Source: Cupriavidus taiwanensis (GTDB lineage: Bacteria; Pseudomonadota; Gammaproteobacteria; Burkholderiales; Burkholderiaceae). From it: DNA of 64,000 nt. Under the pieces are notes generated by a model. It searched no databases. It was given only the letters and a program-made list of their open reading frames with translations, and was not told the DNA's origin. The position numbers were made by a program, and so were the translations under genes. This document shows positions 10,530-29,688 of the stretch, piece by piece; the stretch's first letter is position 1; each line of letters begins with the position of its first letter. Location of the stretch: assembly GCF_900250115.1 (NCBI RefSeq), contig NZ_LT984805.1, forward strand, positions 442,181 to 506,180. Reading direction: 5' to 3'.

Positions 10530-10745
10530 GGTGCAGAATTCTTCTGAAGCCTTTCACCAGGGCCGAGTTCTGCGGGAAGAGCGGATCTGAGTTCCTCCCT
10601 GACATACGTTCATCGAGGTGCCAAGCGGAGCCCGGTGCGACGCGTCCGGCGTTCGCCCGACGGGGAAACTGCGCGCCAAACCAGTCACACCAGTTCCGCA
10701 CCCACTCGGTGTTGAAGCTCACCCCGCACTGGATGTGAAGCTGTA
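10530..10745 (-). pseudogene. IS6-like transposase, N-terminal remnant
   Basis: The minus-strand frame contains GVSFNTEWVRNWCDWFGAQF and PGSAWHLDERMSGR, resembling the HTH-to-DDE junction of IS6-type transposases (typically WHLDEVFI). The catalytic domain beyond the first aspartate is missing. Confidence 0.5.
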
Positions 10746-10827
10746 ATGCGTTGTATCGTGGCTCATCTGAACTGAGTCTGGAAAACCGGAAGTCGCCAAA
10801 CACCCAGACTTCCAAGAGCTCAGCCGG

Positions 10828-14298: not shown

Positions 14299-15483
14299 CT
14301 AGGGAGGTGACTTGGCGGGCTTCGTGTCGATGGGCTTTGTTACTTTACCTAGGGATACTCTGCACAAACGCGAATCGAGTGTGCTTGGCCGTTTAACAGG
14401 AAGCTGAATGCGCCACGACGCCAACCTATCAGCTCGGAGCGAAGCTATCTCGCACGCGCGAAGCAGCATTCGCGGGCTGCGCGCGAGGCATCGGCGTGAG
14501 CCAGAAACGCGCTCATGCCCGGCAGCCAGCAGTTTGCCGCGCGCCATCCACAAGTTGGACAGTGCGAACAAGGTCATGAGTTGCGCGGTGTTCTTCCTCA
14601 GCCCTCGATAGCGGACCTTGGTGTAGCCGAACTGCCGCTTGATGACCCGGAACGGATGCTCGACCTTGGCCCGGATGCCCGCCTTGATTCGCTCGACCTG
14701 ATCGACGAGCGCGCCAAGTGGTTTGCTTTGGTCCAGGACGCGACGTTTGCCTGGCTTCATCGCTACGTGCCAGTTCACGCCCGCCCGCGCGTCCGGACGC
14801 TTCTCCACGCCCTGATAGCCCGCATCGCCGAACGCGTCGGTTTCCTCGCCATGCAGCAGGCTGTTGCCCTCAACCACGTCGTTGACCTTGCCCGCCGTGC
14901 CCCGCACCGTGTGCACCAGCCCGCTTTCGGCGTCCACGCCAATGTGCGCTTTCATGCCGAAATACCACTGGTTTCCTTTCTTGCTCTGGTGCATCTCTGG
15001 GTCGCGTTCGCCCGACCCATTCTTGGTCGAACTCGGTGCGCTGATCAGTGTCGCGTCCACCACCGTGCCCGCGCGCAGCATCAATCCCTTGTCGCGAAGG
15101 ATGTCGTTGACCAGCGCGAGGATCTGAGCGGCCAGCTTGTGCTTCTCCAGCAGGTGACGGAACCGCAGGATGGTGCTCTCGTCGGGCAGCCTCACCGTCC
15201 AGTTGTCCAGCCCGGCGAACTCCCGATACAGCGGCACGTCGTGCAGCGCTTCTTCCATCGCCGGGTCCGACAGGCCGAACCATTGCTGAAGGAAGTGGAT
15301 GCGCAGCATTGCCTCGACCGCGAACGGGGGACGGCCGCGCTTGCCTTCCGGGGCGTACGGAGCGATCAGCATCACCAGATCGGCCCATGGCACCACACGG
15401 TTCATCTCGTCCAGGAATTCGCGCTTGCGGGTGCGCTTGGTCGACAAGTTCAGTCCAAGGTCAGTTTGTTTCATGCGCCACAT
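14299..15483 (-). CDS. IS-B transposase (IS5 family), C-terminally extended by a 1-bp deletion
   Basis: This is the transposase of IS-B copy 1. It contains the IS5-group landmarks PFAVEAMLRIHFLQQWFGLS, VDATLISAPSSTK (D), AFGDAGYQGVEKRP (D) and [20 protein letters not shown] (E). Copies at 18795 and 56934 end LLAAGA after 323 codons. Here one C is missing near 14518-14521, so the stop is lost and the frame runs 71 codons further, beyond the right inverted repeat, to 14299. Whether the extended protein works is unknown. Confidence 0.82.
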   Translation of the reverse strand: MWRMKQTDLGLNLSTKRTRKREFLDEMNRVVPWADLVMLIAPYAPEGKRGRPPFAVEAMLRIHFLQQWFGLSDPAMEEALHDVPLYREFAGLDNWTVRLPDESTILRFRHLLEKHKLAAQILALVNDILRDKGLMLRAGTVVDATLISAPSSTKNGSGERDPEMHQSKKGNQWYFGMKAHIGVDAESGLVHTVRGTAGKVNDVVEGNSLLHGEETDAFGDAGYQGVEKRPDARAGVNWHVAMKPGKRRVLDQSKPLGALVDQVERIKAGIRAKVEHPFRVIKRQFGYTKVRYRGLRKNTAQLMTLFALSNLWMARGKLLAAGHERVSGSRRCLARSPRMLLRACEIASLRADRLASWRIQLPVKRPSTLDSRLCRVSLGKVTKPIDTKPAKSPP

Positions 15484-15542
15484 GCTCGCTGGCTCGACGA
15501 TTCATTGCAAGCACATCCGCCGGCTAATTGTGCAGAGCATCC
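14353..15542 (-). mobile_element. IS-B copy 1 (IS5 family) with perfect CTAG duplication
   Basis: The element is bounded by GGATACTCTGCACAA (14353) and TTGTGCAGAGCATCC (ending 15542), imperfect inverted repeats, and flanked by CTAG at both sides (14349-14352 and 15543-15546), the 4-bp YTAR target typical of IS5. It lies about 50 bases right of IS-A copy 1. Related copies: 18736, 19931, 56774 and a fragment at 43523. Confidence 0.88.
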
Positions 15543-15683
15543 CTAGCAAAGTTTCGGTAAACTGTGTTGAGGCCCGAATGCGAAGTTGGCAAAATGGGAA
15601 CGTAGATCGATCCAACCGTGGTTTAAGAATTCATTGAAAAACGCTTGAATTTATTGCTGCATTCGTTGACACGGCCATCAATC

Positions 15684-16211
15684 ATGAGCAAGTGGAATAT
15701 GAAACAAAGAGGGCGTGCTATCGTCATGATTCAAGGCCTTCCGGGATCTGGCAAGACTACACTTGCTAGAATGCTTTTGGATTTAATTCCGACAGCCAGC
15801 TGGGTTAATGCGGATTTTGTTCGGGATAATATAAATCGTGACTTGACGTTTAGTTTTGTGCACCGAATCGAGCACGCTCGTCGTATGGCGGAAATCGCCA
15901 ATCTGACGCTAAACTACGGTGCGAACGACCATTGCATTGTGGATTTTGTTTGTCCCACAACGGAAACGCGGAGAGCCTTTCTGGGGGCGGCAAAGTACCC
16001 AGTCTACACCGTGTTCATGAACACGATAACTGCTGACGAGTCTAGATTTGCAGATACGCGCAAAATGTATGAGGTTCCCACAGATTACGCGTTTCGGGTG
16101 AGCGGATATAAGACGGCGCAGGAATTGAGGGACGTTGCACGTACAATTCACTTGGTACTCCTAAGCAGATCCCCAAGTTTGTCGTTGACTAAACTCAGGC
16201 GGAGTCTTTGA
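15684..16211 (+). CDS. Adenylylsulfate-kinase-like P-loop protein
   Basis: This protein of about 175 residues has an N-terminal Walker A motif GLPGSGKTT (residues 18-26 from the ATG at 15684) in the sequence IVMIQGLPGSGKTTLARMLL, followed by WVNADFVRDNINRDL, the arrangement of APS kinase (CysC) and related small-molecule kinases. An earlier in-frame ATG at 15645 is possible but has no clear ribosome site. It sits alone, convergent with a truncated aminotransferase. CysC-like proteins outside sulfate-assimilation operons often serve surface-polysaccharide or metabolite pathways, so the substrate is uncertain. Its base composition is lower in GC than the neighbouring IS elements. Confidence 0.65.
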   Translation: MSKWNMKQRGRAIVMIQGLPGSGKTTLARMLLDLIPTASWVNADFVRDNINRDLTFSFVHRIEHARRMAEIANLTLNYGANDHCIVDFVCPTTETRRAFLGAAKYPVYTVFMNTITADESRFADTRKMYEVPTDYAFRVSGYKTAQELRDVARTIHLVLLSRSPSLSLTKLRRSL

Positions 16212-16282
16212 ATTTAATGGCAAATGAGTCTTGCGCGGAATAATATTAGTGCTGGTGCGACTCGGACCGAACCGGTCAGCAA

Positions 16283-16304
16283 ATAGGCCTTCAATTTAGC
16301 CTAT
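16283..16304. terminator. Possible hairpin between convergent genes
   Basis: ATAGGC (16283-16288) and GCCTAT (16299-16304) form a six-base stem with an AT-rich ten-base loop between the kinase-like gene and the convergent aminotransferase. There is no clear U-run, so a terminator role is weakly supported. Confidence 0.25.
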
Positions 16305-16464
16305 CACGTAATATCGGTGAAAGCCGCAGCCATGCTGCTACGGCAATTTGCGAAAGTAATAGGACATCTCTGCAACTGTAGCGATGCGAGTTATTCGGCG
16401 ATTGTGCGTTTGGGGGCGGGTTCGAGCGGTAATCCTTGGCTGTGGGCATCTCGGTACCGGCCTT

Positions 16465-17432
16465 TCATAATTGTGCCCAATAAGTCTTGTTGGAGAGGCA
16501 AGTGTTCGCTGTCGCGCGAAACGCTCGCCAACAGTATTCGATCATGGATCTATCTGTAACCCGCGCGGTCATATCTTCGTCTTTGCAGTAGTCCGCGAGC
16601 GCACCCTTCAGCGCCTCTTGTAAAGTGCTGAAGAATGTGTTGCCCATGGAAATATTGCTCATGTAAGTTGCCGGGTAGCCTGTGTATATACCGTATTGAA
16701 GGCACCGTCGGACAAATGCACTTCCATGTCTTTGCGAAGGCATGACAATATCGAACATGGCGTCGCTTCCTAAGACACGCGCGGGTATTCCGAAGCTAGC
16801 GAACGACTCGTGGAACAACCTCTTGAGCACTGCGCCGCTATCCGCCAAGCGAGCTACAATGCCATCTTCTTCGAAAATTTGCTGCGTTAGATTAGCAGCT
16901 ACGAAGGCTCGATTTTCACGTAAGTAGGTGTTGCCAAGATAAACACCATCCGCCCCGGACATGGCATCGGCCGTACCAATAACCGCAGAAAGGCCAATTC
17001 CCTGTGCGAGTCCTTCGGACAAGGTAATCAGGTCGGCCGGGACCCGGTGTGCTTGGCAGTAACCACCGTCGGCGTAACGAAGTCCGCAAAGCACCTCGTC
17101 AACGATCAAAAGCGCTCCATGCAGCATAGCCATTCTAGCGCTTTGGTGGAGTAACTCCGGAGGAAAGACCGATGGCTCTGGCGTGACTACAATTCCGGCG
17201 ACTTTGCCTCTGTTCCAACTCAACATCTGCTGCAAGATATCTAAGTCATACTGAAAGTCCTGGATGTAATGGTCTTTGGCTGTAGAATCGTCAGACCACG
17301 GGTACCGTTGGAAGATGTCATGCCAACCGTGAAAACCGGCTGTTAGGATAATTGGTTGACCGGTTCGACGTCGTGCGATGCGGACAGCTGCCTCCGTTGC
17401 ACAAGATCCGGTCCTCAAGAAGAAGGCCCTAG
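16465..17432 (-). pseudogene. Class III aminotransferase, N-terminus removed by IS-A, catalytic Lys replaced
   Basis: The minus strand encodes the last 320 or so residues of a PLP-dependent class III aminotransferase, similar to glutamate-1-semialdehyde aminomutase. The frame is open right to the IS-A end at 17433 and enters as RAFFLRTGSCATEAAVRIAR, so roughly the first 100 residues are lost. The PLP-pyridine aspartate is present (LLIVDEVLCGLRY). The expected Schiff-base lysine is not: where relatives have TLGK or TLSK, this has LITLSEGLAQGIG. It is therefore either a dead copy or a non-catalytic relative. It converges on the adenylylsulfate-kinase-like gene, and both are less GC-rich than the IS elements around them. 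Confidence 0.78.
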
Positions 17433-18735
17433 CAGGCCGCTGAAATACCTCCAGCGGACGTCAGCGCGACGACTGGCTGAAGCGTTGCTTTGAGGATCCC
17501 ATCCAATCCCACATTCATGCGCGGCGCAGATACCTTCACGGGAAGCTTGTTCACTATGCGGAGGCTGGAGGATTTCGTGCCGCAGTCCCATCCGCTGCGC
17601 TCGATCCGGACTATGGCCAACCAGGCGCTGGTGAAGATGGACCGGCTGTTCGCGCAGATGTACGAGGCCGATATCAAGGGTGGCCGCCCCAGTATCGCGC
17701 CGGAGAAGTTGCTGCGGGCCATGCTGCTGCAGGTGCTCTACAGCATTCGCTCTGAGCGCCAGCTCATGGAGCAGACGCAATACAACCTGCTGTTTCGCTG
17801 GTTCATCGGGCTGTCGATGGACGACTCAGTTTGGGTGCCCACGGTCTTCACCAAGAACCGCGAGCGACTGATCAAGCATGATGCGGTGATCCAGTTTTTC
17901 AACGAGGTGCTGGCCATCGCGCAGAAGAAGAACTGGCTGTCGGGTGAGCACTTCAGCGTGGACGGCACGCTGATACAGGCGTGGGCAGGCCACAAGAGCT
18001 TCGTGCGCAAGGATGGCGACGACCAAGACGATGACGCCGGCGGCAGCTTCAAAGGTCGCAAGCGCAGCAACGAGACACACGAATCCAAGACCGATCCCGA
18101 TGCCAAGCTCTACCGCAAGGGCAAGACATCCAGTGAGCTGCGCTACATGGGTCATACCCTGAGCGACAACCGCCATGGCCTGGTGGTTAGCGCCATGGTG
18201 ACCAAGGCGGACGGACACGCCGAGCGGGAGGCCGCAAAGGTCATGCTTAACGATGCCAGGCAGGTGATTGAAGACCTGAATGTGGAAGTCACCGTGGGCG
18301 CGGACAAGGGCTATGACGCGCACGAGTTCATTGAGGCCTGCCTGGAAATGAAGGTGACGCCCCACGTGGCGCAGAACACATCGGGTCGTCGCTCGGCCGT
18401 TCCTGATGCCATTGCTTCCAGCGCCGGTTATGCCGTCTCGCAACAAAAGCGCAAGCTGATCGAACAGGGCTTCGGGTGGGTCAAGACCGTGGGGCGCATG
18501 CGTCAGGTGATGGTGCGCGGTCTGAAGAAAGTCGATCAGATGTTTGTGCTGAGCATGGCCGCCTACCACCTCGTGCGCATGCGCTCGCTGGGACAAATCC
18601 GTCCGCAGTTGCAGTAATCGCGCTAATGAGGCCGGAATGGGCGCCAAAACGCGGAAAAAGCCGAGGCAGTGACGTCCGGCTTCCGGATTGTGAAAAACAG
18701 CGCTCCCAGCCTTGCGGGGAAAAACTCATCGCTAG
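17433..18735 (+). mobile_element. IS-A copy 2, right end replaced by IS-B
   Basis: The left end CAGGCCGCTGAAATACCTC starts at 17433 after CTAG (17429-17432), inside the aminotransferase gene. The right end stops within the terminal hairpin: ACTCATCG-CTAG at 18724-18735 is followed directly by the IS-B end, so IS-B used the CTAG in the hairpin loop as its target. The remaining 24 bases of the IS-A right end are not found after the IS-B block, so this copy is no longer a complete element. Confidence 0.82.
17490..18617 (+). CDS. IS-A transposase, copy 2 (intact gene)
   Basis: This is a complete 375-aa IS-A transposase that differs from copy 1 at only a few sites (for example TFTG for TFTE near the N-terminus, AGGSFKG for AGGNFKG, AVPDAIA for AVADAIA). 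The catalytic motifs VDGTLIQAW, GADKGYDAH and EQGFGWVK are unchanged. The gene is intact although the element's right end is gone, so it could supply transposase to other copies. Confidence 0.85.
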   Translation: MRIPSNPTFMRGADTFTGSLFTMRRLEDFVPQSHPLRSIRTMANQALVKMDRLFAQMYEADIKGGRPSIAPEKLLRAMLLQVLYSIRSERQLMEQTQYNLLFRWFIGLSMDDSVWVPTVFTKNRERLIKHDAVIQFFNEVLAIAQKKNWLSGEHFSVDGTLIQAWAGHKSFVRKDGDDQDDDAGGSFKGRKRSNETHESKTDPDAKLYRKGKTSSELRYMGHTLSDNRHGLVVSAMVTKADGHAEREAAKVMLNDARQVIEDLNVEVTVGADKGYDAHEFIEACLEMKVTPHVAQNTSGRRSAVPDAIASSAGYAVSQQKRKLIEQGFGWVKTVGRMRQVMVRGLKKVDQMFVLSMAAYHLVRMRSLGQIRPQLQ

Positions 18736-19926
18736 GGATGCTCTGCACAATTAGCCGGCGGATGTGCTTGCAATGAATCGTCGAGCCAGCGAGCATGTGG
18801 CGCATGAAACAAACTGACCTTGGACTGAACTTGTCGACCAAGCGCACCCGCAAGCGCGAATTCCTGGACGAGATGAACCGTGTGGTGCCATGGGCCGATC
18901 TGGTGATGCTGATCGCTCCGTACGCCCCGGAAGGCAAGCGCGGCCGTCCCCCGTTCGCGGTCGAGGCAATGCTGCGCATCCACTTCCTTCAGCAATGGTT
19001 CGGCCTGTCGGACCCGGCGATGGAAGAAGCGCTGCACGACGTGCCGCTGTATCGGGAGTTCGCCGGGCTGGACAACTGGACGGTGAGGCTGCCCGACGAG
19101 AGCACCATCCTGCGGTTCCGTCACCTGCTGGAGAAGCACAAGCTGGCCGCTCAGATCCTCGCGCTGGTCAACGACATCCTTCGCGACAAGGGATTGATGC
19201 TGCGCGCGGGCACGGTGGTGGACGCGACACTGATCAGCGCACCGAGTTCGACCAAGAATGGGTCGGGCGAACGCGACCCAGAGATGCACCAGAGCAAGAA
19301 AGGAAACCAGTGGTATTTCGGCATGAAAGCGCACATTGGCGTGGACGCCGAAAGCGGGCTGGTGCACACGGTGCGGGGCACGGCGGGCAAGGTCAACGAC
19401 GTGGTTGAGGGCAACAGCCTGCTGCATGGAGAGGAAACCGACGCGTTCGGCGATGCGGGCTATCAGGGCGTGGAGAAGCGTCCGGACGCGCGGGCGGGCG
19501 TGAACTGGCACGTAGCGATGAAGCCAGGCAAACGTCGCGTCCTGGACCAAAGCAAACCACTTGGCGCGCTCGTCGATCAGGTCGAGCGAATCAAGGCGGG
19601 CATCCGGGCCAAGGTCGAGCATCCGTTCCGGGTCATCAAGCGGCAGTTCGGCTACACCAAGGTCCGCTATCGAGGGCTGAGGAAGAACACCGCGCAACTC
19701 ATGACCTTGTTCGCACTGTCCAACTTGTGGATGGCGCGCGGCAAACTGCTGGCTGCCGGGGCATGAGCGCGTTTCTGGCTCACGCCGATGCCTCGCGCGC
19801 AGCCCGCGAATGCTGCTTCGCGCGTGCGAGATAGCTTCGCTCCGAGCTGATAGGTTGGCGTCGTGGCGCATTCAGCTTCCTGTTAAACGGCCAAGCACAC
19901 TCGATTCGCGTTTGTGCAGAGTATCC
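18736..19926 (+). mobile_element. IS-B copy 2 (complete)
   Basis: Bounded by GGATGCTCTGCACAATTAGC at 18736 and a TTGTGCAGAGTATCC end at 19926, with CTAG on both sides (18732-18735, 19927-19930). The right-hand CTAG is shared with the next element, IS-B copy 3, so the two are in direct tandem. Confidence 0.85.
18795..19766 (+). CDS. IS-B transposase (IS5 family, 323 aa)
   Basis: This is the intact IS-B transposase, 323 residues from MWRMKQTDLGLNLSTKRTRK to LLAAGA. It has the IS5-group DDE residues in VDATLISAPSSTKNGS, DAFGDAGYQGVEKR and KVEHPFRVIKRQFGYTK. An internal ATG at codon 4 (18804) may be the true start. It is identical in length to the copy at 56934 and lacks the 1-bp deletion that extends copy 1. 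Confidence 0.87.
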   Translation: MWRMKQTDLGLNLSTKRTRKREFLDEMNRVVPWADLVMLIAPYAPEGKRGRPPFAVEAMLRIHFLQQWFGLSDPAMEEALHDVPLYREFAGLDNWTVRLPDESTILRFRHLLEKHKLAAQILALVNDILRDKGLMLRAGTVVDATLISAPSSTKNGSGERDPEMHQSKKGNQWYFGMKAHIGVDAESGLVHTVRGTAGKVNDVVEGNSLLHGEETDAFGDAGYQGVEKRPDARAGVNWHVAMKPGKRRVLDQSKPLGALVDQVERIKAGIRAKVEHPFRVIKRQFGYTKVRYRGLRKNTAQLMTLFALSNLWMARGKLLAAGA

Positions 19927-19930
19927 CTAG

Positions 19931-21119
19931 GGATTCTCTGCACAATTAGCCAGCGGATGTGCTTGCAATGAATCGTCGAGCCAGCGAGCATGTGGCGCAT
20001 GAAACAAACTGACCTTGCTGAACTTGTCGACCAAGCGCAACCGCAAGCGCGAATTCCTGGACGAGATGAACCGGGTGGTGCCGTGGGCTGATCTGGTGAT
20101 GCTGATCGCTCCGTACGCCCGAGAAGGCAAGCGCGGCCGTCCCCCGTTCGCGGTCGAGGCGATGCTGCGCATCCACTTCCTTCAGCAATGGTTCGGCCTG
20201 TCGGACCCGGCGATGGAAGAAGCGCTGCACGACGTTCCGCTGTATCGGGAGTTCGCCGGGTTGGATAACTGGACGGTGAGGCTGCCCCGATGAGAGCACC
20301 ATCCTGGGGTTCCGTCATCTGCGAGAGAAGCACCCGCTCAGATTCTTGCGCTGGTCAACGACATCCTTCGCGACAAGGGATTGATGCTGCGCGCGGGCAC
20401 GGTGGTAGACGCGACACTGATCAGCGCACCGGGCTCGACCAAGAATGCGTCGGTGTCGGGCGAACGCGACCCGGAGATGCACCAGAGCAAGAAAGGAAAC
20501 CAGTGGTATTTCAGCATGGAAGGGCACATTGGCGTGGACGCCGAAAGCGGGCTGGCGCACACGGTGCGGGGCACGGCGGGCAACGTCAACGACGTGGTTG
20601 AGGCCAACAGTCTGCTGCATGGCGAGGAAACTGACGCGTTTGGCGATGCGGGCTATCAGGGCGTGGAGAAGCGTCCGGACGCGCGAGCAGGCGTGAACTG
20701 GCACGTGGCGAAGAAGCCAGGCAAACGTCGCGTTCTGGACCAAAGCAAACCGCTTGGCGCGCTCGTCGATCAGGTCGAGCGAATCAAGGCGGGCATCCGG
20801 GCAAAGGTCGAGCATCCGTTCCGGGTCACCAAGCGGCAGTTCGGCTACACCAAGGTCCGCTATCGAGGGCTGAGGAAGAACACCGCGCAACCCATAACCT
20901 TGTTCGTGCTGTCAAACCTGTGGATGGCGCACGGCAAACTGCTGGCTGCTTGGGCATGAGCGCGTTTCTGACTCACGCCGATGCCTCGCGCACAGCCCGC
21001 GAATGCTGCTGCGCGCGTGCCAGAAACCTTCGCTCCGGGCTGATAGGTTGGAGTCGTGGCGCATTCAGCTTCCTGTTAAACGGCCAAGCACACTCGATTC
21101 CCGTTTGTGCAGAGCATTC
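19931..21119 (+). pseudogene. IS-B copy 3, diverged and frameshifted
   Basis: This is a diverged IS-B relative in direct tandem after copy 2, sharing CTAG (19927-19930) on the left and having CTAG (21120-21123) on the right. The transposase is broken: 20015-20293 reads LNLSTKRNRKREFLDEMNRV and stops just after WTVRLPR, and the remainder resumes at about 20340 with the GLMLRAGTVVDATLISAPGS region and runs to 20959 (LLAAWA). Substitutions throughout, and an extra SVSGE in NASVSGERDPE, show it is an older lineage than copies 1, 2 and 5. Confidence 0.82.
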
Positions 21120-21312
21120 CTAGGAGACTCTGCGGCTTCTTCAAAGTGTTTCCGATTTACAACGCTCGGCGCGCTCTCGTTGCAGCTGCCGTGCCGCACT
21201 TGCGGGGTAACGACTCTGGGGAGAGGCTTTGGTAACATCGGCGCTCAATCGGCCAAAAGCGTAGTATTAGTGGCTTATGCGGCGCTTTTTCTGTGACTAA
21301 CCCAACGAACAG

Positions 21313-21328
21313 TAGCCATGGATGGCTA
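21313..21328. promoter_or_regulatory. Perfect palindrome upstream of the TAC operon (operator 1)
   Basis: TAGCCATGGATGGCTA is a perfect 7-2-7 inverted repeat about 10 bases upstream of the predicted -35 element. It shares its TA-n-CC...GG-n-TA layout with the second palindrome at 21346-21360. MqsA-type antitoxins autorepress by binding TAACCT-N3-AGGTTA-like palindromes, so this is a candidate antitoxin operator. Confidence 0.55.
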
Positions 21329-21337
21329 GAAATCTCT

Positions 21338-21366
21338 TGCGGAACTTACCACGGTGGTAAATAATC
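21338..21366 (+). promoter_or_regulatory. Predicted TAC promoter with embedded palindrome (operator 2)
   Basis: TTGCGG (21338-21343) and AATAAT (21361-21366), separated by 17 bases, make a plausible sigma-70 promoter. The spacer contains the perfect 7-1-7 palindrome TTACCACGGTGGTAA (21346-21360), the position where a bound antitoxin would occlude RNA polymerase. The palindrome also overlaps the only in-frame GTG start of the toxin gene (21354), so either the promoter or that start is wrongly placed. Confidence 0.5.
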
Positions 21367-21803
21367 GAAAGAACGTAAGCCAATACGCCGGAGCGAGTCC
21401 CTCAGATGTAGGTGGAGGCAGTCGTAAAATTCAGGGGAAGGCAGATGGGCCTCTTTACGATCCTGCGGCACTCATCGCGCTGCTCGAGGTTGGGGCGGAT
21501 GGCGAGAACTATGCGCCAGTCATTCCATTCACCGAAAAGTGCGCTAGGGACGTCCAGAAGTATGAGCTGGACGCAAGAGAGCTAGCCACTCTGGTGAAGG
21601 ACGCTGTTCGGTCGGGCACTTTCAAGGGCTCTGAATGGTGCGAGAAGCAGCCGGGCGGCCCTTGGGCGGCATGTGATGTCTATGTACTGATTCGCCAGGA
21701 ATGGAATGAGTACGCCTACAAAGACATCACTCAGGAGTACTACGTCAAGCTAGCCAACAATCGTACTGGCAAGCTGATCCTACTCGTATCAATGCATCAG
21801 TAA
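21354..21803 (+). CDS. Putative MqsR-like toxin of a toxin-antitoxin-chaperone operon
   Basis: This is the first gene of a three-gene operon. The C-terminal part (KCARDVQKYELDARELATLV, then QEYYVKLANNRTGKLILLVS ending MHQ) resembles MqsR-type ribonuclease toxins, which end with a strand like VYLKITVIHDVLIVSF and cleave mRNA. The match is distant. The only canonical in-frame start is GTG at 21354, giving 149 aa, but that lies in a palindrome. A start at ATT 21429, behind GGTGGAGG (21411-21418), would give about 124 aa beginning near GKADGPLYDPAALIALLEVG. The gene ends 12 bases before the antitoxin, which has its own GGGAG site. Toxin identity rests mainly on operon context. Confidence 0.6.
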   Translation: MVNNRKNVSQYAGASPSDVGGGSRKIQGKADGPLYDPAALIALLEVGADGENYAPVIPFTEKCARDVQKYELDARELATLVKDAVRSGTFKGSEWCEKQPGGPWAACDVYVLIRQEWNEYAYKDITQEYYVKLANNRTGKLILLVSMHQ

Positions 21804-21815
21804 CGGGAGATCCAA

Positions 21816-22574
21816 ATGACTACGCATGTTCTCTGCGATGTGTGCGGGGAAGGCCATGTCGCGTCCGTGTATGGACAAAATGAGATCGAGCACAAGGGCG
21901 CAACGTTCTCTGTGCCATTTGTCATGTCGCACTGTGAGGAGTGTGGCAGTGACTACGCGTCAGCGTCTGACATGCGTCAGAACAAGCGCGCGGTAGTGGA
22001 GCTTCGTAAAAAGCTAGAGTGTCTTCTGACCGGGCAAGAGGTTCATGCCATCCGTGTCGGCGCAGGCCTGAAGAAGGTACAGGCAGTAAAAATATTCGGT
22101 GGTGGGCCGGTCGCCTTTTCGAAGTACGAAGCGGATGATGTGACCCAATCCGCATCAATGGACAAACTCATCCGCGTAGCTGCACAGGTCCCGACTGCAT
22201 TGGCATGGCTTGCTCATGCGGCAGGTGAGGAAGAGGTTGCGACGGCGATCTGTTCCAAGGAAGTGTCCCGAATCTCTACCATCCTGGAAGCGGATGGAGT
22301 GTTAAAGGACGCACGATGTGTGGTTCACGCGGTCCTCAAACATACGCTGTTAGATTCTCCCATTTCCTGTTACTCGAAGGTCTTTGTATCCGAGAGCAGC
22401 GAAGAGGATGAACTTGCAGTTGATGTGCAGACAGGCGGGACAGTGCATAGTATGGCCCGCTTTGTTCAGCGCAAGAATGCAGCCTACGAAATGTCGCTCG
22501 ATTATGACGCTCCAGCTTCGAACTTGCCTGCGGCACTGAAGAGCATGCAGAGCTATAAGTTAGAAGCAGCCTAA
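21816..22574 (+). CDS. MqsA-like antitoxin with long C-terminal extension
   Basis: This 252-residue protein begins with a YgiT/MqsA-type zinc finger, C7-D-V-C10 and C40-E-E-C43, followed by a helix-turn-helix (about residues 77-120) with the diagnostic GLKKVQAVKIFGGGPVAFSK run that matches the family pattern GLSQREAGELFGGGVNAFSRYE. It should neutralise the upstream toxin and repress the operon. Canonical MqsA is about 130 residues, so about 120 extra residues follow the DNA-binding domain. In known chaperone-controlled (TAC) systems, a C-terminal chaperone-addiction segment makes the antitoxin unstable unless a SecB-like chaperone binds it. Here the SecB-like gene starts three bases after the stop. 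Confidence 0.75.
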   Translation: MTTHVLCDVCGEGHVASVYGQNEIEHKGATFSVPFVMSHCEECGSDYASASDMRQNKRAVVELRKKLECLLTGQEVHAIRVGAGLKKVQAVKIFGGGPVAFSKYEADDVTQSASMDKLIRVAAQVPTALAWLAHAAGEEEVATAICSKEVSRISTILEADGVLKDARCVVHAVLKHTLLDSPISCYSKVFVSESSEEDELAVDVQTGGTVHSMARFVQRKNAAYEMSLDYDAPASNLPAALKSMQSYKLEAA

Positions 22575-22577
22575 GGT

Positions 22578-23102
22578 ATGAGACCGAGTCCATTAAAGCT
22601 CAATTCGCTTAGATTCTTGCACGTGAGCGTCTATCCCAGAAATGAGCCTGAGACGCTGGATCCAGTAGAGAACCCCGCGCCAATTGATACCTGGGGAGCA
22701 AATATTCATTGTTCCCTTACCCATGCCGAAGCTGATAAGCTAGAAGGCGGGGAGGTCCGCGACTATATGGTTGCGTTAGGGATTCAAGTCAGTGACGGCC
22801 CGGAGAAAGAAGTTCCTTACAAGATTGATGTCGAATGTGTGGGATATTTTTCGATACCAAATGGGTTCCCTGACGCGGCGGAACGTCTCGAAATCGCTGT
22901 TGTGAATGGTGCGTCTTTGCTCTATGGTGCGATCAGAGAGCAAATCGCAACCGTTACAAGTCGGTGTTGGTACGGTGAGCTACGATTGCCATCGCTGAAT
23001 TTTCGAGAGGATGGCCCAGCGGCTCGCGCTGCGGCAGAGGCGAAGCGGCGCGCTGCAGAAGAAAAGAGCGGTGCAACTCAACCATCTGCCGATCCAGAGT
23101 GA
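22578..23102 (+). CDS. SecB-like chaperone of the TAC operon
   Basis: This 174-residue protein has the SecB fold signature toward its C-terminus: VECVGYFSIPNGFPDAAERL, then NGASLLYGAIREQIATVTSR and LRLPSLNF, matching SecB segments (VNGA-LLFPYARE-I-T-RGGFPPL-LPPVNF). An alanine- and charge-rich tail (AARAAAEAKRRAAEEKSG) follows. Solitary SecB-like chaperones next to an antitoxin are the defining third component of TAC modules, in which they protect the antitoxin. The ATG lies three bases after the antitoxin stop, indicating coupled translation. It is unlikely to be the housekeeping SecB, given this context. Confidence 0.78.
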   Translation: MRPSPLKLNSLRFLHVSVYPRNEPETLDPVENPAPIDTWGANIHCSLTHAEADKLEGGEVRDYMVALGIQVSDGPEKEVPYKIDVECVGYFSIPNGFPDAAERLEIAVVNGASLLYGAIREQIATVTSRCWYGELRLPSLNFREDGPAARAAAEAKRRAAEEKSGATQPSADPE

Positions 23103-23130
23103 TGTAACTTTGCATCATGTCTTGACAAAG

Positions 23131-23156
23131 CGGCCCGCAATTATGCGGGCCGTTTG
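23131..23156 (+). terminator. Rho-independent terminator of the TAC operon
   Basis: CGGCCCGC (23131-23138) pairs with GCGGGCCG across an AATTAT loop and is followed by a TTTG tract, 28 bases after the chaperone stop. This is a strong stem and closes the three-gene operon just before the IS66 end at 23252. Confidence 0.85.
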
Positions 23157-23251
23157 CATTTCTGGTGCTAATGCCCGATGGTCTGAGTTGATCCGCGGTT
23201 CTCCATGCGCAAGTCTTTCCTCGGTAAATTGCGAGACCACTCAGCTTATGA

Positions 23252-23274
23252 GTAAGCGAGTCGCAAGCACCGTC
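23252..23274 (+). repeat. Left inverted repeat of IS66 element 1
   Basis: GTAAGCGAGTCGCAAGCACC followed by GTC is the IS66-type terminal repeat; it resembles the end at 53553 (GTAAGCGAGTAGCCAGTACC). The matching right end of this element has been lost through the fusion at about 27829. Confidence 0.75.
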
Positions 23275-23297
23275 TGTACCGTTCAGTAGAGTGGCGC

Positions 23298-23336
23298 CAA
23301 AGTAGTTCCCACCAAATAGTGATGGGAACTACTTTG
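23298..23336 (+). promoter_or_regulatory. 14-bp inverted repeat covering the IS66 tnpA start
   Basis: CAAAGTAGTTCCCA (23298-23311) is the exact complement of TGGGAACTACTTTG (23323-23336), and the tnpA ATG (23322) lies at the base of the downstream arm. In RNA this 14-bp stem would bury the translation start. The complete IS66 at 53553-55988 has an analogous stem (CTGGTTCCCACC / GGTGGGAACCAG) just upstream of its tnpA. Confidence 0.6.
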
Positions 23337-23732
23337 TCACAGTTACAGGAAGTACCAGTTGCCGGCGGTCGCAAAGGCCGGCCGAACTACAACGAGGAAT
23401 TCAAGCGGCGATTGGCAGCCGCTGCGTGTGAGCCGGGTGTCTCGGTATCGAAATTGGCGCGCGAGCATGGCATCAACGCGAACATGCTGTTCACTTGGCG
23501 CCGACGCTATCGAACGGAGCAGTGCCAGGAAGCTGCGGTGTTGTTGCCGGTGACGGTTGAACGCCCAAGCTCGCCACCCGGTCCGATGCCAATGAGTCCG
23601 GGCGCTGCGGTTTGCGAGCCGACGCCGCCGCACGGCGCCATCGAGATCCGCCTGGGCCGAGCGGTGATTCGCATCGAAGGGGCAGTCGACGCGAGCACGT
23701 TGCGTACGGTACTGGACCGTTTGACGCCATGA
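23322..23732 (+). CDS. tnpA: IS66 accessory protein TnpA
   Basis: This 136-aa protein of an IS66 element has the helix-turn-helix region [20 protein letters not shown] then [20 protein letters not shown], typical of IS66 TnpA. ATG 23322 is preferred over 23319. Its stop overlaps the tnpB start in an ATGA, so the two are translationally coupled. The copy appears intact. Confidence 0.82.
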
Positions 23733-24076
23733 TCGGGTTGCCGGCGGGAACACGCATCTGGATCGCTGCAGGCGTGACCGACATGCGCTGTGGATTCAAC
23801 GGGCTCGCCGCGAAGGTGGAGGCGACTCTGCAAGAGAGCCCATTCTCCGGCCATGTCTTCGTCTTCCGCGGCAGGCGCGGCAACGTCATCAAGGTGTTGT
23901 GGTCAACGGGCGATGGACTTTGCTTGCTCTCGAAGCGCCTGGAGCGTGGACGTTTCGTCTGGCCGAAGGCCGACAGCGGCAAGATCCACCTGACGCAAGC
24001 GCAGTTGTCGATGCTGCTGGAGGGGATTAACTGGAAGCAGCCCGAGCGCACCTGGCCGCCACAGTCGGTGTTGTAA
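23729..24076 (+). CDS. tnpB: IS66 accessory protein TnpB (IS66 Orf2)
   Basis: This 115-aa protein has the hallmark IS66 Orf2 sequence: [56 protein letters not shown] and [15 protein letters not shown]. It starts at the ATGA overlap with tnpA and is followed 30 bases later by tnpC. Intact. Confidence 0.87.
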
Positions 24077-24106
24077 ACCTTGCGGCATGTGCGTAAACTG
24101 CCGCGC

Positions 24107-24701
24107 ATGCCAATCGACCCCAGCGATCTCCCCGACGACATTGAGGCCCTGAAGGCCTTGGTGTTGGCACAGCGGGAATCGATCGTACTCATGGAACGGG
24201 CCTTGGCGGTCCGCTCCATGGAGATCGAGCAGCTAAATCTGCAGATCTCAAAGCTGAGGCGGATGCAGTTTGGCCAGAAGTCCGAGAAGCTGGATCGACA
24301 GATTGAACAGCTTGAGACCCGACTGGAAGATCTGCTGGCCGAGGAAGGTGCGGCTGAAACCGAAGTCGATCCGCAGGCAACCCCTTCTGTCCGGAAGAAA
24401 GCGGTACGCAAGCCGTTGCCGGAGCACCTGGAGCGGGAGGAGCGCATTCTCGAGCCCGAGACCGAAGCCTGTCCAGAGTGCGGCGGTAAGCTCAAGCCGC
24501 TGGGCGAGGACATCTCGGAGCAACTCGATATCATCAGCAATTCATTCAGGGTGATTCGGCAGGTGCGGCGCAAGAAGGCCTGCGCCTGTTGTGATTGCAT
24601 CGTCCAGGCTGCGGCGCCAAGCCGGCCGATGAGCGCGGCATTGCCACGGCGGGACTGCACGCTCACATACTGGTTGCCAAATACGCTGATCATCAACCGC
24701 T
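24107..24701 (+). pseudogene. tnpC: IS66 transposase TnpC, 5' part, broken by a frameshift and IS-C
   Basis: The N-terminal part of the IS66 transposase begins [20 protein letters not shown], with a coiled-coil leucine-rich stretch, [20 protein letters not shown] and a zinc-binding-like CPECGGKL and CACCDC pair. A missing base near 24630, within what should be SRPIERG, shifts the frame. The IS-C element then inserts at 24702 in the sequence for ADHQPLYRQ; CCGCT is present on both sides (24697-24701 and 27268-27272). The remainder of the gene is at 27268-27829. Confidence 0.82.
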
Positions 24702-24777
24702 TAGATAGCGTCAAGCAGGACGGCCGGTCCAGCGACAATCATTTTGGCCGGTTGGCCGGGATGATTGTCGGTGAGTG

Positions 24778-25614
24778 TTAGGTCATGGTTGTCGCTCCGT
24801 TATCGATGTCGCGGTGATTGTCGTTGTCGCTGGATGATTGTCGTCGGCGAGCAGACTGCTTGTCGCTTGCGGTGCGCCGACGGTAGCTTTCGACGTTCAT
24901 TTCAAAGATCGTCGAATGGTGGACGAGTCGGTCAATCGCGGCGATGGTCATGCCGGGGTCAGGGAACACGTTGTCCCAGCCTGAGAACGGCTGGTTGGCC
25001 GTGATCAGCAGACTGCGCCGCTCATAGCGCTCGGCGATCAGTTCGAATAGGACACTGGTTTCGGCCTGGTCCTTGCGGGCGTACGACAGGTCGTCCAGGA
25101 TGATCAGGTCAAAGCGGTCGAGCTTGGCCAGGGCTGCAGGTAACTGCAGGCTCTGCCTGGCTGCCTGCAGCTTCTGGACGATCTCGCTGGTACGCGTGAA
25201 CAGTACCCTGTACCCAGCGTCGATCAGGGCATGCCCGATGGCCGATCCGAGGTGGCTCTTCCCACCGCCCGGCGGGCCGAAGATCAACACATTGGCACCT
25301 TTCTCCAGCCAGGAATCACCGCTCGCCAGTGCCATCACGTGCGCCTTGGAGACCATGGGCACAGCACTGAAGTCGAAGGCAGCCAGCGTCTTGGTTGGAT
25401 CCAGGCGGGATTCGGTTCGGTGTCGTTCGATACGCCGCTTGGCCCGTTCGGCCAGTTCGTGTTCGAGCAAGGCGCCAAGCAGCCGGGTTGCCTGCCAGCT
25501 TTCCTTGTCGGCGCGCTGTGCGAACTCTGGCCAGAGCCGGCCAATGGTGGGCAGGCGCAGTTCGTTGAGCATCAACGTCAGGCGGGCGGCATCAATTGGG
25601 AGCGGCGCGTTCAT
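24778..25614 (-). CDS. istB: IS21 helper ATPase IstB (IS-C copy 1)
   Basis: IstB is an AAA+ ATPase of the DnaA/DnaC type that helps the IS21 transposase choose and capture its target. Walker A is FGPPGGGKSHLGSAIGHALI and Walker B is FDLIILDDLSYARKD. It starts MNAPLPIDAARLTLMLNELR at an ATGA overlap with the istA stop, showing translational coupling. The C-terminal tail (RRQSSSDNDNHRDIDNGA) is encoded by the TGATTGTCG-type end repeats of the element itself. It is identical to the copy at 46736-47572. Confidence 0.9.
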   Translation of the reverse strand: MNAPLPIDAARLTLMLNELRLPTIGRLWPEFAQRADKESWQATRLLGALLEHELAERAKRRIERHRTESRLDPTKTLAAFDFSAVPMVSKAHVMALASGDSWLEKGANVLIFGPPGGGKSHLGSAIGHALIDAGYRVLFTRTSEIVQKLQAARQSLQLPAALAKLDRFDLIILDDLSYARKDQAETSVLFELIAERYERRSLLITANQPFSGWDNVFPDPGMTIAAIDRLVHHSTIFEMNVESYRRRTASDKQSARRRQSSSDNDNHRDIDNGATTMT

Positions 25615-27110
25615 GCTGCGACCCCCTGGCCCAGCAGGGCGTCGTAGCAACTGGTCGCCGGCATCTGGACATGGATGACGGGGTGATCGGCTTGCCGCGG
25701 CGAGAACTCCTCGCGCAGCGCTTCCAGATCCGGCAGATCACCATCGCCCAACATGGCTTCCAGGCGCACGGCCAGCACGGCTTCGATACCGTCCATGGCC
25801 GCCAGCTCAAGCAGGCCAACCATCGTCTTGCACGCGTCGCGTTGCGACAGCCGGGCATCAAGCTGCTCCCAGGTTCGCCGATAGGCCTCCCGAGGGAACA
25901 GATCGTCCCGGAACGCCAGGCCCTTGAAGGCCTGCGGCTTACGTTTGAGCCCCTCAATGAAGTGCCGATAGTCGATAGCGCGGCGGGTGCTGTGCGCGGC
26001 GTGGGAGCCCCGAGGAGTGCTGAACACCATGGCTCCGGACAGGTAGCAGTCCAGTCGGTCGCCGTACACACGCACCTTCAGACGGTGACCAATCAGGCGG
26101 GACGGCGCGCTGTAGAGGATGCCGCGCACGGTGAATGTGCTGCAACGGGTGACACGCGCTTCCTCTTCGGCAAAGTCCGTCGTGCGCCGGGGAGGCAGGT
26201 CCGTCAACTGCTCGCGCTCGAGACGGAACGCCGCTGCATGACGCCGGTTACGACGCATCACGACCTCGCGCAGGAGCGCCTCATAGGCGGCTCGATCCTC
26301 GAAGTCCCGGTGGCCGCGCAGCATCAGTGCCTGGTCGACAGCCTCCTTCAGATAGCGGTGGGATGATTCCACACTGCCGTTCTCGTGGCCCAGGCCGCGG
26401 TTGTTACGGGTGCCGGTCATCCCATAGTGGTCCAGCAGGGCTTCGTAGCGCGTTGTGAAGTCCTCCTGCTCCTTCAGGTTCTTGAACGCCGCCGAGAGGC
26501 TGTCGGTGCGATGTTCTCGCGGGCAGCCGCCGGCCTGCCAGAGCGCGTTCTGCAAGCCCGAGGACAGCGCCTCGAAGCTCTCTCCGCCTTCAACCACTTG
26601 GGCGTACTCCCAGCGCGAGAACGCGAACACGAAGTGATACAGGCGGTGAGGGAATGGAACGCCGGAGATGGTGATGCCCAGCGCCTGCATATCGGTGAAG
26701 TCCGACAGTGCCCGGATCCCCGGCGCGTGTTCCTGTGGGAAGAAGACTTCTTTGGCCGGTCCAGACACAGCCCGCCACTTGCTGATGCGCCGTTCGAGCG
26801 TGCGGCGCATGCTGTCAGGGTATTGGTCGGGATGGTCGTCCTGGAGCTTGCGCAGAATGGTGATGGCTTGCAGGCGCGGCTCGCTAGCAAGCATCGGCAC
26901 GACCTCGGTGTCCCAGACCTCGACGAATGGATCGGGCCGCGAGCGCCAGTAACGGCGGGGCTTCTGCGAAGGCAGTTGGCTATCACGTTCGATACGCCGG
27001 GCACTGCGCACACTGATGCCGGCCTTGGCAGCGGCAATCTCCTGGGTATGCTGTTTGCGTTTGGACATGTAGAGGCTAACCTGTTGGTCGGTAATACGGG
27101 TTCCAGACAT
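25611..27110 (-). CDS. istA: IS21 transposase IstA (IS-C copy 1)
   Basis: This 499-aa IstA carries an N-terminal helix-turn-helix (MSKRKQHTQEIAAAKAGISV RSARRIERDSQ), an integrase-like core with the ending RGLGHENGSVESSHRYLKEA that holds the catalytic E, and a C-terminal beta-barrel segment (GILYSAPSRLIGHRLKVRVY). The start could be 27110 or the MSKRK methionine at 27068. It precedes and overlaps istB. Intact and identical to the second copy, so the element should be active. Confidence 0.9.
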   Translation of the reverse strand: MSGTRITDQQVSLYMSKRKQHTQEIAAAKAGISVRSARRIERDSQLPSQKPRRYWRSRPDPFVEVWDTEVVPMLASEPRLQAITILRKLQDDHPDQYPDSMRRTLERRISKWRAVSGPAKEVFFPQEHAPGIRALSDFTDMQALGITISGVPFPHRLYHFVFAFSRWEYAQVVEGGESFEALSSGLQNALWQAGGCPREHRTDSLSAAFKNLKEQEDFTTRYEALLDHYGMTGTRNNRGLGHENGSVESSHRYLKEAVDQALMLRGHRDFEDRAAYEALLREVVMRRNRRHAAAFRLEREQLTDLPPRRTTDFAEEEARVTRCSTFTVRGILYSAPSRLIGHRLKVRVYGDRLDCYLSGAMVFSTPRGSHAAHSTRRAIDYRHFIEGLKRKPQAFKGLAFRDDLFPREAYRRTWEQLDARLSQRDACKTMVGLLELAAMDGIEAVLAVRLEAMLGDGDLPDLEALREEFSPRQADHPVIHVQMPATSCYDALLGQGVAA

Positions 27111-27267
27111 GGACTGACCGCTTATTGATGCGATCAGCCATCGTAGAACCCGGCCAACTCGGCGCCGCCGGTGGCGGAAACTCTCCGGCGGCTACGCCGC
27201 CTCCGAGTTCCCGCCACCGGCCAAGATGTTTGTCGCTACGCCGGACAAAATGATTGTCGCCGCCCAA

Positions 27268-27829
27268 CCGCTGTACCGCCAAGCCGCTATCTATGCTCGC
27301 CAGGGCGTGGAGCTGGACCGCACGACCATGGCGCGCGGGGTCGGCGCTTGCGGTGCGCTGGTACGCCCCCTCGTCGAGGCTTTGCACCGATACGTGATGA
27401 TGCCCGGCAAGGTGCACGCGGACGACACGCCGCTGCCGGTACTTGCGCCAGGTAAGGGGCAGACCAAGACCGGAAGGCTATGGGCTTACGTGCGAGACGA
27501 TCGCGCATCGGGTTCGGATGCTGCGCCTGCGGTCTGGTTCGCCTACACACCAAACCACCAGGGCCAACATCCCCAAGCGCATCTGGCCGGCTTCCGCGGC
27601 ATCCTGCAGGCAGACGCGTATGCGGGCTTCAACGCTGTTTTTACCGATGGCAGTGTGCGCGAAGCAGCTTGTATGGCTCACGCGCGCCGTAAGGTGCACG
27701 ATCTGCATGTCCGCAAGGCAACGCCGACCACAACGGAGGCGTTACGCCGGATCGGCGAGCTCTATGCCATCGAAGCGGAGATCCGGGGTAAGCTGCTGGC
27801 GCCTTTATGCCGAAGAGCTACCTGCCGTG
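27268..27829 (+). pseudogene. tnpC: IS66 transposase TnpC, middle part, fused to IS-A
   Basis: This is the continuation of tnpC after the IS-C insertion. It encodes PLYRQAAIYARQGVELDRTT, the first catalytic-type region VHADDTPLPVLAPGKGQTKT, VWFAYTPNHQGQHPQAHL and ILQADAYAGFNAVF, then AACMAHARRKVHDLH. It ends abruptly near VRQDRS, where the sequence switches to IS-A at AAGACCGATC (27825-27834), a ten-base string common to both elements. The C-terminal third of TnpC, including the final catalytic residue, is missing. Confidence 0.8.
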
Positions 27830-28506
27830 CGTCAAGACCGATCCCGATGCCAAGCTCTACCGCAAGGGCAAGACATCCAGTGAGCTGCGCTACATGGGTC
27901 ATACCCTGAGCGACAACCGCCATGGCCTGGTGGTTAGCGCCATGGTGACCAAGGCGGACGGACACGCCGAGCGGGAGGCCGCAAAGGTCATGCTTAACGA
28001 TGCCAGGCAGGTGATTGAAGACCTGAATGTGGAAGTCACCGTGGGCGCGGACAAGGGCTATGACGCGCACGAGTTCATTGAGGCCTGCCTGGAAATGAAG
28101 GTGACGCCCCACGTGGCGCAGAACACATCGGGTCGTCGCTCGGCCGTTGCTGATGCCATTGCTTCCAGCGCCGGTTATGCCGTCTCGCAACAAAAGCGCA
28201 AGCTGATCGAACAGGGCTTCGGGTGGGTCAAGACCGTGGGGCGCATGCGTCAGGTGATGGTGCGCGGTCTGAAGAAAGTCGATCAGATGTTTGTGCTGAG
28301 CATGGCCGCCTACCACCTCGTGCGCATGCGCTCGCTGGGACAAATCCGTCCGCAGTTGCAGTAATCGCGCTAATGAGGCCGGAATGGGCGCCAAAACGCG
28401 GAAAAAGCCGAGGCAGTGACGTCCGGCTTCCGGATTGTGAAAAACAGCGCTCCCCGCCTTGCGGGGAAAAACTCATCGCTAGCGCGATGAGTACTTCAGC
28501 AGCCTG
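27829..28506 (+). pseudogene. IS-A copy 3, left half deleted
   Basis: Only the 3' half of IS-A remains: the transposase from KTDPDAKLYRKGKTSSELRY to the stop at 28364 (about 178 codons), including the second D and the E motif but lacking the first D, then an intact right end ending CCTG at 28506 followed by ATAG. An ATG at 27807 in the fused IS66 sequence opens a 185-codon hybrid frame, but it has no known function. Confidence 0.82.
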
Positions 28507-28682
28507 ATAGGGGATACGTGATTTGAAAGCAGCCCAGCCCCATGAACTATGTCAAAGAAAATGTTCGCCACCATACAACGACTCGTGCAGGGCTGGACAT
28601 TCGGTTAAGAAATTTGCTGAGCCACCCAATGGCTCGGCGTAAGGCTATTCAGCTTTCATGGCGAATATGCAGACGCTATTCA

Positions 28683-29084
28683 TCACAGTCGCCCCAAGGC
28701 GGAATGGTGAAGTGCGCAATCACTACTTGAAGACGGAGTGTACTCAGTCGCTTCCTTCAATATCTCTGCTTCCTGTGTCTTTTTTCCCAAGAGCCTTTGC
28801 AACTCTCGAATCTCGTTCATCGCGGCGGCTAATTGAGATGCGGGAACCAAAGCCTCGCCGATATTGTGAGGGGCCAGAGTACCATCTTGGTACTGCTTCC
28901 GCCATGCGGACACTTGATTGGGATTGACTTCATGGCGCCTGGCCACCTCTAAGACGGTTACACCTGGTTCCAGGGTTTCCTGCACAATAGCAAGCTTTTC
29001 ATGCACGGACCGCCGCCGCCGCCGCTCTGGCTCGCTCAAGGCCTCGTTTCCTCCTTCAGAAGGGTTGGACTTCAAACTGGTCAC
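28683..29084 (-). pseudogene. IS3-family OrfA-like gene, element truncated
   Basis: The minus strand encodes a 133-aa OrfA of an IS3 (IS2-like) element: [20 protein letters not shown], a helix-turn-helix ending [20 protein letters not shown], and a leucine-zipper-like [20 protein letters not shown]. After that the homology stops and no orfB follows, so the element is truncated. Together with an orfB fragment at 31030-31395 in the same orientation it brackets the pectin-lyase gene. Confidence 0.72.
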
Positions 29085-29322
29085 AAAATATCTCCTCTAA
29101 TTTAAAAACGTCCCTAGGTATCATACGAGGCAGGCATGTCTTGGTGAACACGCTGACATTAGCTAGCTCACCGTTCCATTAACTCATCAGGCAGCACTAC
29201 CGCGGACTCTTTAGTTTCCAGCCAATTGCGTAAAGCATGAAAACGAAATATTAAAACCCATGCGTTACATGGCCCAAGAGACTGAAACTGAAACAAGGAA
29301 CGCCGCACGTTTTTGATTTGCC

Positions 29323-29685
29323 TTAGCATGCTTCAGCATCTGATACATGACAGGTGACTAGAATGAGGCGTCTTGTGGCTTGCAAAAACCTGACGCAGCC
29401 TGGAGTCGATGACTTCGAAGAAGTACCATCACTACCTTGCAAATAACGCCTCAGCAATTCTTCGAGCGAGCTTCGCACCAATGTTGGTGGAACCCGGAGT
29501 TGTAAGTCATTTGAATGAAAAATCATCAGCCGCCTCCAGGAAGTCGGGATTGTAGAGGGCGTACCTCCGGACGTAAAATGAACTGTATTCAAATCGTTAT
29601 GAAGCTCGCTCATGAGGGTATGTGAAGACCGCTGCTGCAATAGAAAATGAGTACGGTACAGCACATCCATGACGCGCCCCTTCAT
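29323..29685 (-). CDS. Hypothetical protein, doubtful
   Basis: This 120-codon frame starts immediately downstream of the pectin-lyase stop, on the same strand. I recognise no domain, signal peptide or membrane segment, and its composition (many Ser, Thr, Arg) does not look strongly protein-like. It could be a small cotranscribed gene or simply open by chance. The 29085-29322 interval on its other side shows no gene. Confidence 0.25.
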   Translation of the reverse strand: MKGRVMDVLYRTHFLLQQRSSHTLMSELHNDLNTVHFTSGGTPSTIPTSWRRLMIFHSNDLQLRVPPTLVRSSLEELLRRYLQGSDGTSSKSSTPGCVRFLQATRRLILVTCHVSDAEAC

Positions 29686-29688
29686 GTA

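Follow-up and report, generated by a model that had tools for sequence, protein, structure and literature searches.

Toxin–antitoxin–chaperone (TAC) modules are described as having antitoxins with a C-terminal tail that recruits the chaperone (PMC5105189). We analyzed a three-gene operon of Cupriavidus taiwanensis that very likely is such a module with an MqsR-like toxin (MqsRAC type); it lies in a 64,000-nucleotide stretch (the window; positions 442181–506180 of contig C3 in a host genome of 7.0 Mb and three contigs). The V. cholerae RC385 TAC (Vcho-TAC, MqsRA-SecB; Bordes et al. 2016), reported to be functional in E. coli, resembles the operon in its toxin, its MqsA antitoxin with C-terminal extension and its SecB-like chaperone (PMC5105189). 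According to the published cloning primer, which reads atggtaaataatgcg after the cloning site and on which the family membership rests, the Vcho-TAC toxin starts ATGGTAAATAAT, the signature of the window's toxin family. The chaperone-addiction (ChAD) region swapped in that study comprised residues 136–176 (41 aa), compared with an extension of about 122 residues in the window (PMC5105189).

MqsRAC of E. coli C496_10, reported to protect against phage T2 and to be inhibited in this by extra chaperone, shares gene order and named families with the operon, as far as its description goes (PMC9519451, PMC10783111). In CmdTAC/PD-T4-9, a T4 capsid protein is described as taking the chaperone away, after which the antitoxin is degraded; the TAC logic and the SecB-like chaperone are shared with the operon, whereas the toxin is the mRNA ADP-ribosyltransferase CmdT and the antitoxin is different (PMC11618068). 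The window chaperone matches this system weakly (E 0.021), and the window toxin, with no PADLOC match and a model matching MqsR, does not appear to be a CmdT-like ADP-ribosyltransferase. HigBA1-SecB-TA of M. tuberculosis, unlike the operon, is assigned to the HigB/HigA toxin–antitoxin family (PMC5105189). Finally, the MqsRA pairs of E. coli and P. putida (PF15723/PF15731) share with the window the toxin fold, the zinc finger and helix–turn–helix (HTH) of the antitoxin and an ACC-N5-GGT operator core, but are described without a chaperone and with an antitoxin ending near the MqsA core (PMC2791442, PMC5422877).

Gene Content and Predicted Folds

The three genes follow one another on the forward strand with gaps of 12 and then 3 bases, as the initial annotation had it (Table 1), and lie in one predicted operon with the composition of a TAC. 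Gene 1 had been started at 21313, but the reading frame has a stop codon ahead of the GTG at 21354, which is the true start and also the one that RefSeq uses for the near-identical C. taiwanensis toxin. The amber codon just 5′ of this GTG was considered as the mark of a broken toxin start and rejected, since the palindrome described below and the starts of relatives place the start at the GTG. The claim of a strong terminator holds for the stability of the hairpin after gene 3, whereas its U-run is weak and a pattern scan for terminators did not list it. A consensus scan of 21000–23400 found no sigma-70 promoter, and the upstream DNA of relatives, compared by eye, had no consistent −35/−10 elements; the region 20900–23700 gave no Rfam match at gathering thresholds.

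Table 1. Features of the operon (positions in the window)
Feature	Position	Strand	Remarks
Palindrome, predicted operator	21346-21360	.	TTACCAC-G-GTGGTAA; 7/7 arm positions match; holds GTG start 21354-21356
Gene 1, toxin, 149 aa	21354-21803	+	MqsR fold; N-terminal extension of about 25-30 residues; GTG start; no curated family match
Toxin codon 135, private substitution Asn	21756-21758	+	In predicted core strand 123-136
Gene 2, MqsA-family antitoxin, 252 aa	21816-22574	+	Zinc finger, HTH, long extension; C-terminus LEAA
Antitoxin C-terminal extension, residues 131-252, candidate ChAD region	22206-22571	+	About 122 residues past MqsA core
Gene 3, SecB-like chaperone, 174 aa	22578-23102	+	SecB fold
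Hairpin, likely terminator	23128-23155	+	-22.9 kcal/mol, z -4.05; weak U-run

Gene 2 has the YgiT/MqsA zinc finger and HTH ascribed to it, with four cysteines (C7, C10, C40 and C43), the HTH motif GGGPVAFSKYE at residues 95–105, and scores above the cut-offs of both PF15731 (56.2 vs. 30 bits) and TIGR03830 (99.3 vs. 61.8 bits). Its C-terminal extension goes beyond the two-component homologues, as in a TAC. Past the MqsA core, TAC antitoxins have a median of 60 residues (47–123, n = 38) and conventional mqsRA antitoxins 6 (4–65, n = 28), a difference with Mann–Whitney P 3e-10, uncorrected for relatedness; the conventional set comprised 28 of the 30 antitoxins scanned, leaving out loci L204 and L209 and including the chaperone-bearing L211. 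An ssrA-like AA ending, tried as a further mark of TACs, was not discriminating (14/38 TAC and 5/28 conventional antitoxins).

The structure model of gene 3 has the SecB fold. Of the 46 relatives with an antitoxin match, 44 have an open reading frame (ORF) of 100–260 aa next after that gene, the exceptions being L004, in which it is broken, and L045. Several of these third genes are named SecB in RefSeq and two are hypothetical. Among conventional MqsR loci, a chaperone recognized by its profile occurs in three of 32 (L204, L209 and L211), and L209 belongs to the window's toxin family.

For gene 1, the initial annotation had proposed a structure prediction and a profile search against MqsR/RelE families: the model matches the MqsR (RelE-like) fold with a second structure aligner, whereas PF15723 gives no match for the window protein. 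Several results count against the TAC assignment. Foldseek alone returned no toxin match below E 0.03, with MqsR absent among the 50 matches listed; the window toxin does not reach the curated cut-off of PF15723, and of 40 aligned family members only 7 have a PF15723 match with E no higher than 1 (the best being 0.001); and an hhalign comparison of the toxin-family profile with conventional MqsR is weak (probability 3.9%, P 0.011). Gene 3 scores 23.8 bits with PF02556, just below the cut-off of 26, and this profile matches only 9 of 35 aligned third-gene proteins (E up to 0.01). The distant relative L209 passes PF15723 with a partial match (34.7 vs. 26.2 bits). The aligned toxins are not convincingly covered by any curated family of Pfam, NCBIfam or PADLOC, the last of which gave one weak unrelated match in 36 members, and the fetched RefSeq plasmid and E. 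coli records call the toxins hypothetical. Residues K56, Q68, Y81 and K96 are reported to matter for MqsR toxicity (PMC2791442). The weak profile alignment places Y81 at Y130, which is Tyr in 36 of the 39 relatives and Phe in the other 3, and S94 at S146 and, if extended, K96 at what appears to be an invariant His, H148; for K56 and Q68 it gives no clear equivalent.

Purifying selection acts on the frames of the toxin and the antitoxin, with ratios of nonsynonymous to synonymous substitution rates (dN/dS) of 0.19 and 0.23, respectively, against the homologous locus L175 of another Cupriavidus genome, whose toxin is 78% identical; for the chaperone, the ratio of the corresponding proportions (pN/pS) is 0.25, with synonymous sites saturated. 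With an MqsR-fold toxin, an MqsA antitoxin, a SecB-fold chaperone and a third ORF in nearly all relatives, the MqsRA-type TAC of the initial annotation is borne out with high probability.

At L026 (4840–6195), the MqsA antitoxin is a fusion protein whose extension, about 300 residues long, is unrelated, and the next ORF matches the chaperone profile. In C. basilensis (P0009/P0129, 365 kb), an antitoxin without the first zinc-finger half and a chaperone lie apparently on one contig; the toxin search found no toxin in C. basilensis.

A Palindrome over the Toxin Start Codon

The right arm of the window palindrome, a feature that the initial annotation had overlooked, opens with the GTG start of the toxin. 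Among 44 relatives with a readable start, 42 show a 15-bp palindrome, matching at six or more of its seven arm positions, that encloses an ATG or GTG in frame, and the toxins surveyed form 30 groups at 90% identity. The survey was drawn from 26 + 14 + 10 loci or records; L004 (split), L024, L027, L032 and L041 (cut or start missing) and the plasmid matches H8 and H10 were left out, and L047 was added from a separate search. Toxin codon 2 is GTA in 41 of the 42, while residue 3 varies (Asn, Ser, Thr, Arg or Lys) and only the first base of its codon is fixed. The palindrome arms covary, being CAT/ATG in most relatives, CAC/GTG in Cupriavidus and TTATCAC/GTGATAA in L031; the half-changed palindrome of L022 is an exception. 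Across the host genome, TTACCAYNRTGGTAA occurs without mismatch at a single site, that of the window. Scanning viral contigs with CTTACCATNATGGTAA gave at least 120 stretches; among the matches listed, 22 are toxin starts of the window's family, 18 of them with an MqsA core within 2.5 kb, and the other listed stretches have neither. Because codon 2 is fixed while residue 3 varies, the arms covary and most of the viral toxin starts with CTTACCATNATGGTAA have an MqsA core within 2.5 kb, the constraint at the toxin start, as judged from these sequences, acts on the DNA.

The palindrome is very likely the operator of the antitoxin. Against this stands the annotation of starts, which is not uniform: P0006 is started five codons 5′ of the aligned start, and RefSeq starts the toxin of the E. 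coli E2 prophage (L216) at the second Met, four codons after the operator ATG. No recognizable operator was found in L047 and phage Hali (L218), and L045, without a third gene, has a TACC operator just 5′ of the start. The idea that every chaperone-linked MqsA has a start-codon operator was rejected: L204 has a chaperone but a conventional AACC operator just before the start, and L211 a chaperone and an AACC operator with an out-of-frame ATG, so that the start-codon operator belongs to the TACC-type antitoxins seen and not to TACs in general. L208 also has an AACC operator with an out-of-frame ATG, and its toxin is in two frames. A contrast in Shine–Dalgarno strength was likewise dropped, the mean duplex energies of −3.3 kcal/mol for toxins and −5.6 kcal/mol for antitoxins (33 each) being weakly separated with much overlap.

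If the palindrome is the operator, the first toxin residues (Met/Val-Val-Asn/Ser/Thr) would be set by the operator sequence and not by the protein. The antitoxin would then sit on the DNA of the toxin's initiation site, leaving no room for a nearby ribosome-binding site, and the same palindrome could also form a fold in the mRNA that covers the start codon. As a simple DNA signature, it locates such TACs and would predict their repression. In the literature searched, with most subscription journals outside it, no operator of an MqsA or a TAC is described as covering the toxin's start codon.

Operator Type and Antitoxin Residue 97

P. putida MqsA is reported to bind an AACC-N5-GGTT-type palindrome 5′ of the toxin, overlapping its ribosome-binding site and not, as in the window, the start codon; among the residues of the protein, Asn97 and Arg101 are singled out as mattering for DNA binding, and the operator is given as ACCT-N3-AGGT (PMC5422877). 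The window antitoxin, matched by motif, has Val and Lys at these two positions, and its operator differs from ACCT-N3-AGGT, keeping the ACC-N5-GGT core with outer bases T..A (TACC..GGTA). Among conventional mqsRA loci, AACC-N5-GGTT is centered 14–18 bases 5′ of the start in 6 of 32 with both clear, that is, with a clean ATG start and one operator within 30 bases; 24 of the 32 gave no distance. The operators of L187 are about 280–310 bases away from the start, and in L209 the operator ATG is in frame, 51 bases 5′ of the start chosen by our script.

The outer operator base follows antitoxin residue 97: all 12 loci with Asn97 have AACC..GGTT and all 31 without it TACC..GGTA. This comparison used the 43 of 74 loci with both the HTH motif and an operator, counting two loci with two operators once; the motif without an operator was found in five Asn loci (L041, L182, L186, L190 and L218) and two non-Asn loci (L032 and L047), and 24 loci lacked the motif pattern. 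Since L211 combines Asn97 and Lys101 with an AACC operator, residue 97 and not 101 follows the outer base there. The correlation is strong but not independent, as the two groups are mostly separate clades, which tempers the conclusion drawn from it. We lean toward the view that a widespread class of TACs in Proteobacteria and their phages has moved the antitoxin operator onto the toxin start codon, with residue 97 mainly setting the choice between AACC..GGTT and TACC..GGTA. With this correlation, MqsA specificity can be tested by way of a single residue and a single base pair.

The host genome (G000) encodes a second MqsA-like protein (L212; C1:186066–186341, a 131-aa frame), with a conventional-type operator, AACCTGCTAGGTT, close 5′ of the gene at C1:185962–185974.

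Proposed Mechanism and Biological Role

In the mechanism that we propose, a toxin with the modeled MqsR fold, probably an mRNA endonuclease, would be held by the MqsA-type antitoxin, whose long C-terminal extension, by analogy with described TACs, probably renders its stability dependent on binding by the dedicated SecB-like chaperone. An antitoxin dimer would probably repress the operon through the palindrome and, because this includes the start codon, the first toxin codons (GTG GTA A) would double as operator sequence. Once the chaperone is occupied or depleted, the antitoxin would be lost, repression lifted and the toxin freed; on the analogy of CmdTAC and MqsRAC, we infer phage infection to be the usual trigger.

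TACs are emerging as a class of phage defense, and the window toxin and nearly all the relatives in our set are without a name. Nine annotated plasmid loci were fetched. In five of them (four distinct), a defense system is found no more than about 4 kb away: a type I restriction system adjoins the TAC on plasmids of Polaromonas (L044) and Vibrio (L049), BREX on Acinetobacter plasmids (L046 and L050) and DISARM on a Thiodictyon plasmid (L047). The other four have no such neighbor, including the near-identical copy of the operon, which has mostly insertion sequence (IS) elements and no annotated defense gene within 8 kb, a point against our overall reading. In Escherichia phage PhiR70_1 (L217, 3983–5505), the three-gene module, with all genes named hypothetical, is flanked by cI on one side and by kil, gam and bet on the other; in lambda, this interval holds rexAB. 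In the E. coli E2 prophage (L216, 3286–4808), the module directly follows an XRE-type repressor gene. A defense role is suggested by the module's place in the lambdoid phage and by the neighboring BREX, DISARM and restriction genes, and we put the chance that phage defense is the main role at about even. L216, which carries a TAC of the window's toxin family, is one of 18 of 5,426 E. coli genomes matching the DNA of L028, although among the matches listed (10) only a 73-bp antitoxin stretch is shared; a search of E. coli genomes with the DNA of L034 found no match. Pseudomonas phage Hali (L218, 3040–4366) has a remote toxin, an MqsA-like second gene and a small third gene just after the integrase.

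Alternative Explanations

The initial annotation had seen the operon as an addiction module by which the IS-eroded region is kept in the population, for which we found no direct support, its relatives occurring in other DNA contexts, beside defense genes and in phages. A post-segregational killing module that stabilizes the megaplasmid or the IS-rich segment is still a possible, if rather doubtful, account. The operon is probably on a plasmid, because the 16.4 kb around it (window 13355–29800) are 99.99% identical to the 578-kb C. taiwanensis plasmid NZ_CP016951 from Mimosa nodules; relatives are found on 10 plasmid records, and the three genes are open while adjoining transposase genes are interrupted. 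On the other hand, relatives also occur in chromosomes and prophages, and the operon is present in just 6 of 60 Cupriavidus genomes, counting the window's own copy and the split one of C. necator UYPR2.512. There, the toxin is split by an insert and the antitoxin is open, so loss of function is tolerated. In general, we favor phage defense over plasmid addiction; for the window copy we leave its role between the two, which are compatible. On the UYPR2.512 plasmid pplas1 (L004), the insert measures 3.4 kb (6234–9624) and has about 10 duplicated flanking bases; the frame of the chaperone (10603–11126) is divided in two.

A second concern is whether the window copy is still functional. Described initially as free of lesions, the operon does have all reading frames open, but toxin residue 135 is Asn where all 39 other aligned relatives have Ile, Leu, Val or Met, and this change is the sole difference in 1,757 bases from each of three near-identical copies. 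The substitution may have weakened the window copy, which speaks against an intact module. That it inactivated the toxin, with the operon persisting only because the loss is recent, we consider unlikely: operator and hairpin are intact along with the three frames, and a single substitution need not abolish activity. The window copy is more likely than not to be fully active.

Improbable, too, is that the palindrome works in the mRNA as a small hairpin hiding the toxin start codon and not as a DNA operator. A 6-bp stem with a 3-base loop around the start is predicted in all four sequences folded (z −0.7 to −2.6), but the innermost pair (positions 7 and 9; T–A or C–G) cannot form in RNA with a one-base loop and nonetheless changes in concert in the window and in L031, with L022 an exception. 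Furthermore, the outer bases track the DNA-reading residue of the antitoxin, and conventional mqsRA shares the ACC-N5-GGT core away from the start codon. An orphan SecB paralogue beside an unrelated MqsA regulator, with gene 1 not a toxin, would agree with the lack of a family match and the hypothetical label of gene 1 in RefSeq but is very improbable given the conserved three-gene order, the MqsR fold of gene 1 and the same opening signature in the toxin of the V. cholerae TAC, reported as functional in E. coli (PMC5105189).

Genomic Context of the Operon

The GC content of the operon, 0.52–0.55, is below that of its flanks, about 0.59–0.65. IS5-type pieces lie 5′ of it and IS66 and IS21 genes 3′, the names being taken from the annotation of the near-identical plasmid. 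The transposase on the 5′ side (20015–20959) is split over two frames of 92 and 192 aa. On the 3′ side (24080–25650), an IS66-type gene is apparently interrupted by an IS21 element, in which the IstB frame runs to about 24778.

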